A stretch of 64,000 nucleotides of DNA from NCBI GenBank assembly GCA_013335115.1, contig JAAXWQ010000002.1, forward strand, positions 124,001-188,000, read 5' to 3'. The translations under genes were made by a program, and so were the position numbers. The number at the start of each line of letters is the position of its first letter. Position 1 is the first letter of the stretch. This stretch comes from Chlorobiaceae bacterium (GTDB lineage Bacteria > Bacteroidota > Chlorobiia > Chlorobiales > Chlorobiaceae). The notes beneath the pieces are model-generated. The model made no database searches, was not told where the DNA came from, and worked only from the letters and a program-made list of their open reading frames with translations. Below, piece by piece: positions 31,630-32,208 of this stretch.

Positions 31630-32193
31630 TCACTCCTTGTCGCCGTAGGGCCAACGACCCTGGTGCTCCAGGATCATCTCGACAATCTCCCTGATGCACC
31701 CCCTCCCGCCTTCGTAGACCGAGATGTAGGCTACCCGGTTCCTCAGGTACTCGACCCCGTTGATGGTCGTTACCGGCAGACCGACCTTCCTGAGGATGTC
31801 CAGATCCTCGATATCGTCGGCGATGCAGGCGCACTCCTCATCCTTGAGGTCGTAGCGCTGCTTGAACGATTCGTAGGCATCGAGCAGGTCCCCACCCTCC
31901 AGGTAGAGGTCCATGGCTCCCGCAGCCTCGAGCAACGGCTGGTAAACGCTGGCGTTGCGTCCCGAAATGACGGCGATGCGCAGGCCGCTTCGCAGCGCCT
32001 CCCTGATGGCCACGCCGTCACGGGCATACAGGCGCGCGAGCTCCCGGCCTTCGCTGTCAAGGGTGATGGCCCCATCGGTAAGCACGCCGTCAATAGGGAA
32101 AATCACGGCTTTGATGGCGTCCAGGGCGGTTCCGACCTGGGATGAGGGATCAGCCTCGAAAGGCTGCATGCCGAAAAACTGAAAAGAGCTCAC
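31630..32193 (-). CDS. KdsC-like HAD protein lacking the nucleophile
   Basis: 187 residues, related to KdsC (Kdo-8-phosphate phosphatase). 'GVLTDGAITLDSEGRELARL', 'RIAVISGRNASV' and 'CACIADDIEDLDIL' are HAD motifs I (rear part), II and IV. However, motif I reads F-P-I-D-G at 32-36 where KdsC has D-V-D-G: Asp33, the nucleophile, is replaced by proline (codon CCT). The protein may be inactive as a phosphatase or have a structural role. The start is uncertain: GTG 32193 or ATG 32169. It directly follows kdsA (15-nt gap), which supports the pathway link. Confidence 0.8.
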   Translation of the reverse strand: MSSFQFFGMQPFEADPSSQVGTALDAIKAVIFPIDGVLTDGAITLDSEGRELARLYARDGVAIREALRSGLRIAVISGRNASVYQPLLEAAGAMDLYLEGGDLLDAYESFKQRYDLKDEECACIADDIEDLDILRKVGLPVTTINGVEYLRNRVAYISVYEGGRGCIREIVEMILEHQGRWPYGDKE

Positions 32194-32208
32194 TTCAGTA
32201 GATATTGA

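Follow-up and report, generated by a model that had tools for sequence, protein, structure and literature searches.

A KdsC orthologue lacking the HAD nucleophile throughout Chlorobiales is probably a pseudo-phosphatase retained in Kdo synthesis

The KdsC protein encoded behind kdsA in Chlorobiales has lost the nucleophilic aspartate of HAD phosphatases, and the loss is class-wide. The protein is probably a pseudo-phosphatase that has been kept for a non-catalytic job in Kdo synthesis while the chemistry of the step moved elsewhere. The gene was studied in a 64,000-nucleotide stretch of a contig from a Chlorobiaceae bacterium (the window) and in genomes of the same order. Phosphatases of the HAD type need the first Asp of motif I to form an aspartyl phosphate.

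Because the KdsC profile still labels the protein a phosphatase, annotation gives green sulfur bacteria a full Kdo pathway although one of its steps lacks an assigned enzyme. The finding names the enzyme that is missing from this outer-membrane pathway and offers one candidate for it. Literature searches combining KdsC with Chlorobi, and KdsC with phosphatase and pseudoenzyme, found no printed description of a loss of the KdsC nucleophile in Chlorobi. The only paper found for KdsC with Chlorobi concerns Aquifex, as far as its available text goes, and KdsC is not mentioned in the accessible part of PMC3087551.

The gene, its neighbours and its active site

The open frame at 31630-32193 has 187 codons on the minus strand and reads ...AVIFPIDGVLTDG... 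(Table 1). It encodes a free-standing protein, and kdsB is a separate 252-aa gene. The window gene belongs to the kdsA-kdsC operon and is its true KdsC orthologue. Its product scores 127.4 bits against TIGR01670 (KdsC), above the curated cut-off of 106.95, and lies under the cut-offs of the models for KDN-9-phosphate phosphatase (NF058599, 76.4 vs 180 bits) and phenylphosphate carboxylase delta (TIGR02726, 72.1 vs 281.95).

Table 1. Features of the kdsA-kdsC region in the window (positions count from the first letter of the window).
Feature	Position	Strand	Description
kdsC orthologue without the HAD nucleophile (putative pseudo-phosphatase)	31630..32193	minus	187 aa, GTG start; orthologues in 95/98 Chlorobiales genomes
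kdsA, Kdo-8-phosphate synthase, 276 aa	32209..33039	minus	TIGR01362 369.6 bits (cut-off 314); NF003543 387.9 bits (cut-off 242)
15-nt gap, kdsA stop (TAA) to GTG start of the putative pseudo-phosphatase	32194..32208	minus	both genes in the same orientation
Codon 33, CCT (Pro), replacing the nucleophilic Asp of motif I	32095..32097	minus	codon read and orthologue alignment
Codon 35, Asp (D+2, acid/base position)	32089..32091	minus	83/83 in the family, 12/12 in other families of the order
Motif II region, codons 77-79 (S-G-R)	31957..31965	minus	Arg79 invariant; position 77 Ala in 14/83
Codon 103, Leu replacing the motif III Lys	31885..31887	minus	Lys in 0/83 family rows, 12/12 other Chlorobiales, 88/88 outgroup
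Motif IV Asp-Asp (metal-site acidic pair), codons 126-127	31813..31818	minus	retained in 83/83
EGGxGCxRE C-terminal motif, codons 161-169	31687..31713	minus	retained; largely common to active KdsC
N-terminal tail, codons 1-18 (FQ[FY]FGMxPxxADPSS)	32140..32193	minus	conserved in the family; low pLDDT in the model

Motif I of the window protein is F-P-I-D-G-V-L-T-D-G, with Pro33 at the position of the HAD nucleophile. Reading the minus-strand frame bore out what the first-pass annotation had given for this gene, namely its boundaries at 31630-32193, the CCT codon for Pro33, the retained Asp35 and a place directly after kdsA. The gene starts 15 nt behind kdsA in the same orientation. The same annotation had described all other HAD motifs as intact, which was incorrect. 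Motif III Lys103 is replaced by Leu and motif IV Gly125 by Ala. In the window's family (f1), position 103 is occupied by L, R, P, F or V in 83/83 copies and position 125 by Ala in 19/83; the 12 rows of the other families (f2, f3 and f4) all keep Lys103. On mechanistic grounds, Pro, Ala, Val or Asn at position 33, combined with the missing phosphate-holding Lys, would exclude catalysis through an aspartyl phosphate. Judged from its sequence, the protein is very likely unable to act as a phosphatase through the HAD mechanism, and so should not cleave Kdo-8-phosphate.

The N-terminal tail is a feature of the family. Gln5, Phe7, Gly8, Pro11, Ala14, Asp15 and Pro16 are invariant in 82/82 family rows, and their codons vary synonymously. 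The only member of the order that keeps Asp33 (G039) is without the tail. The start codon is TTG in 78/82 family rows and GTG in 4/82, the window codon lying at 32191-32193. Such constant use of a rare start may keep translation of the pseudo-phosphatase below that of kdsA.

The structure of the window protein was predicted from 18 alignment rows with a mean pLDDT of 71.7; residues 1-16 and 140-164 fell below 50. The model matches KdsC/YrbI structures best (Z 18.8, rmsd 2.4, 156 residues), with Z 18.8 to 17.9 over the first 16 rows of matches, and it also aligns with the C-domain of CMP-sialic acid synthetase (3ewi, Z 15.1). With its fold, D+2 Asp, motif IV Asp pair, Arg79 and GGxGxxRE tail retained and a new N-terminal tail added, the protein looks as if it can still assemble or bind a ligand.

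The two genes are adjacent and on the same strand in 88/88 fetched loci that hold both. The gap between them is 11-15 nt in most family loci and is often out of frame, which points to coupling of kdsA and the pseudo-phosphatase gene and not to read-through. A KdsA/pseudo-phosphatase fusion made by reading through the stop codon was considered and rejected; the two frames are in phase here and in 17/20 loci of the genus, but out of phase in 38/62 loci of the sister genus. In the outgroup loci L070 and L071, kdsA is followed by an intact KdsC and then by a KdsD-like frame (KdsD identity read by eye). The NAD-kinase gene of G039 neighbours its KdsC orthologue in the same relative orientation as in the window. 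kdsA lies elsewhere in G039 and in five f2 genomes without the nucleophile (G037, G043, G044, G046 and G047), and these five show that KdsA is no obligatory neighbour.

Two observations concern kdsA itself. The kdsA of the five f2 genomes is more divergent (53-55% identity vs 63-64% in g6 and g8), and it is possible that it was replaced from outside with the pseudo-phosphatase gene left in place. One single-contig genome (G016:C1:2232040-2232860) has a kdsA that runs over two frames, through either a sequencing error or a real break in kdsA beside an intact pseudo-phosphatase gene.

Distribution and ancestry of the nucleophile loss

In the whole-genome set, the order and the class of the window comprise one and the same group of 98 Chlorobiales genomes. 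A kdsA-type KdsC orthologue was identified in 95/98. The remaining three (G004, G083 and G088) have neither an orthologue nor kdsA, probably because their assemblies do not include the region. The 95 orthologues were aligned; one row has a gap at position 33, where the gene is split over contigs. Asp33 is absent from 93/94 rows with a residue at this position, which carry Pro (67), Ser (17), Asn (4), Thr (3), Ala (1) or Val (1), and one Asp remains. Asp35 and the motif IV Asp126 are found in 95/95. A collection of named genomes contributed 17 relatives, all of them Chlorobi records, and Asp is absent in 17/17; all five named Chlorobaculum loci have Ser33. As a control, 88 members of the KdsC family from elsewhere in the phylum were examined, and D33, D35, K103 and D126 are present in 88/88.

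All four Pro codons are used for Pro33 across the family, and Ser33 likewise occurs as each of the four TCN codons. This synonymous variation, and the recurrence of the change in 93/94 orthologues, argue against a sequencing or assembly error, an explanation that the first-pass annotation had already thought unlikely and that we reject. Alignment with other Chlorobi had been proposed there as a check on the conservation of Pro33. Pro33 itself proved not to be what is conserved, with Ser, Thr, Asn, Ala or Val at the position in other clades.

The Asp-bearing G039 was placed in the tree as sister to f1 (support 97/84), an arrangement that would require several losses or a regain of Asp33. A single loss with G039 placed outside was not rejected by the topology test (p-AU 0.301). 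Near the base of the order, Asp was thus lost one or more times, with up to three losses possible. The genomes form a series in which the site is intact (one genome), the nucleophile is lost and Lys is kept (f2, f3), or both are lost (f1), and this series lets the turn from enzyme to pseudo-enzyme be followed. A long branch (0.70 changes per column) leads to f1, as a change of role would predict.

An intact paralogue, candidate partners and alternative readings

In the available part of PMC12285230, KDO was reported by HPLC in every tested sample of Chlorobaculum tepidum and was highest in whole cells. Since Kdo has been measured in this species and the Chlorobaculum loci carry Ser33, another phosphatase must act on Kdo-8-phosphate. 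KdsB is over the cut-off in 90/98 genomes, and the window's own genome has KdsB and KdsD. WaaA (PF04413) was not found in the window's own assembly; because it is over the cut-off in 54/61 sampled genomes, its absence is probably a contig gap.

The first-pass annotation had proposed looking for a second KdsC, and the genome does hold one further relative with an intact site. It lies at G000:C6:61994-62464 and is 29% identical to the window protein; across the order, paralogue and orthologue are about 24-32% identical. D33, D35, T77, K103 and G-D-D are present in 24/24 paralogue copies examined across the order, and a NeuB-like gene adjoins the paralogue in 22/24 loci (L019 among them). By match counts it occurs in about 93/98 genomes, being absent from G039 and from four assemblies of 77-91% completeness.

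The best NCBIfam match of the paralogue is the KDN-9-phosphatase model, at 138.1 bits and below the cut-off of 180, and it exceeds the cut-off of the general KdsC subfamily (118.1 vs 106.95 bits). Its best PDB match is the KDN-9-phosphate phosphatase of Bacteroides thetaiotaomicron (1.2e-30). By family match, neighbouring gene and closest structure, it looks like a nonulosonate-9-phosphate phosphatase. A PseF-like cytidylyltransferase is also encoded in the window's own genome (L148), and this gene and the NeuB-like neighbour hint at possible synthesis of a nonulosonic acid in green sulfur bacteria. A Glu after motif II, a possible mark of nonulosonate-phosphate specificity to judge from the titles of the E56A mutants 4hgq and 4hgr, was tried and set aside; it is not clean, as 39/88 outgroup copies carry Glu.

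The paralogue is nevertheless the best candidate for the Kdo-8-phosphate phosphatase, with about even chances of being that enzyme. The association of its presence with loss of the nucleophile has a single contrasting genome, G039, which has Asp33 and no paralogue. The idea that the window protein is a pseudo-enzyme with a true phosphatase elsewhere agrees well with the class-wide loss, with purifying selection and with the intact second copy; the nonulosonate-type appearance of that copy complicates it.

We propose the following course of events. The ancestral KdsC of the kdsA-kdsC operon would have lost its nucleophile, and in f1 its Lys as well, and so become a pseudo-phosphatase. As Kdo is made in the group, a different phosphatase would have taken over the Kdo-8-phosphate step, the intact NeuB-linked paralogue being the best candidate. 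The old protein most likely still binds something in its pocket or takes part in an oligomer of the KdsC type. It would then serve as a binding, assembly or regulatory subunit of Kdo synthesis, with KdsA or the active phosphatase as its partner. A role within the Kdo pathway is the placement towards which we lean, and KdsA and the intact paralogue are both candidate partners. Counting against the proposal, the pseudo-phosphatase gene changes more quickly than kdsA (median identity 0.583 vs 0.696 over 136 common pairs).

That the protein directly partners KdsA is a tentative suggestion that we find doubtful. The first-pass annotation had offered a scaffold or regulator of KdsA as an example. 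Adjacency in 88/88 loci agrees with this, whereas the five f2 genomes with kdsA elsewhere do not, and no ordered docking of the tail on KdsA was seen when KdsA, the gap and the window protein were folded in phase as a single chain (pTM 0.60; tail disordered, with pLDDT about 32-36). The disordered tail lends no support to docking, and a fold from 16 rows with a short linker is weak evidence either way. A more specific version is speculative and rather unlikely. In it the NeuB-linked phosphatase would do the Kdo-8-phosphate chemistry, and the old KdsC, held through the invariant N-terminal tail, would serve KdsA either as a non-catalytic partner that it cannot do without or as a sensor of its product; a pathway enzyme would then have turned regulator across a whole bacterial class.

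Alternatively, the pseudo-phosphatase may form mixed oligomers with the NeuB-linked paralogue and steer it to Kdo-8-phosphate, not acting on KdsA at all. Most genomes hold both proteins (paralogue about 93/98, orthologue 95/98, by match counts), the C-domain of vertebrate CMP-sialic acid synthetase offers a precedent (PMC8636478, in its available part), and the distances of the two proteins co-vary (r 0.896; partial 0.790 given NeuB). Co-variation is stronger with KdsA (r 0.935; partial 0.665 given the paralogue) than with the paralogue given KdsA (0.346), and mirror-tree distances from 18 genomes with no null are only a hint. The low identity between the two proteins also speaks against mixing, and we regard this arrangement as unlikely.

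The protein could also be a relict whose activity was lost once the paralogue or another phosphatase had taken over, and which is slowly decaying or is kept for local structural or expression reasons. Residue 33 does drift (P, S, A, N, T, V), and E. coli kdsC tolerates insertions provided that lptC is expressed, according to the part of PMC5821084 that is available. Several observations oppose decay. Median pairwise dN/dS is 0.131 for the pseudo-phosphatase, 0.087 for kdsA, 0.090 for the NeuB-linked paralogue and 0.061 for NeuB (Nei-Gojobori, own script, pairs with dS 0.1-1.5; the 97 pseudo-phosphatase rows include a few outgroup copies). Of the 187 positions, 63 show conservation of 95% or more within the family. 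Among the orthologue matches shown, none was listed with an internal stop, and the three genomes without the gene are also without kdsA. Purifying selection and the invariant N-terminal tail speak against both a sequencing slip and a pseudogene in decay, and a pseudogene specific to the window was rejected on the dN/dS of ~0.13 and the orthologues' lack of listed stops. A relict is therefore improbable, and a selected non-catalytic role is very likely.

Least probable of all is an enzyme of altered chemistry that cleaves Kdo-8-phosphate or a related ester without an aspartyl phosphate, for example by direct attack of water aided by Asp35 and the motif IV acids; Asp35, Arg79, Asp126 and Asp127 are invariant in 83/83 and 20/93 changed copies have Ser or Thr at position 33, but 73/93 have Pro, Ala, Val or Asn, which cannot replace the nucleophile, the phosphate-binding motif III Lys is lost in 83/83, and the motif II Ser/Thr has become Ala in 14/83.

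Comparison with known systems

The retained pseudo-phosphatase is closest in kind to KdsC/YrbI (TIGR01670; 2r8e, 3ij5, 4hgn), which it resembles in its place behind kdsA, its fold (Z 18.8), its score above the cut-off, the D+2 Asp, the motif IV Asp pair and the GGxGxxRE tail. The window family differs from KdsC/YrbI in lacking the nucleophilic Asp and the motif III Lys, in its extra conserved N-terminal tail, and in starting with a codon other than ATG wherever the alignment has a residue at that place (82 rows). The KDN-9-phosphate phosphatase of Bacteroides thetaiotaomicron (3e81, 4hgo) belongs to the same HAD subfamily, and the likeness to it belongs to the intact paralogue and not to the window protein. 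The phenylphosphate carboxylase delta subunit (TIGR02726) is likewise KdsC-like, and its name makes it part of a different enzyme complex.

By analogy, the nearest precedent would be the KdsC-like C-domain of vertebrate CMP-sialic acid synthetase. According to the available part of PMC8636478, this KdsC-like module has no phosphatase activity and serves oligomerisation. The module (3ewi) has the KdsC fold and works in a keto-sugar-acid pathway, and the window protein matches it by sequence and by model. In the synthetase the module is a fused domain of a cytidylyltransferase, whereas the window protein is a free-standing chain of 187 aa encoded beside the synthase gene kdsA.
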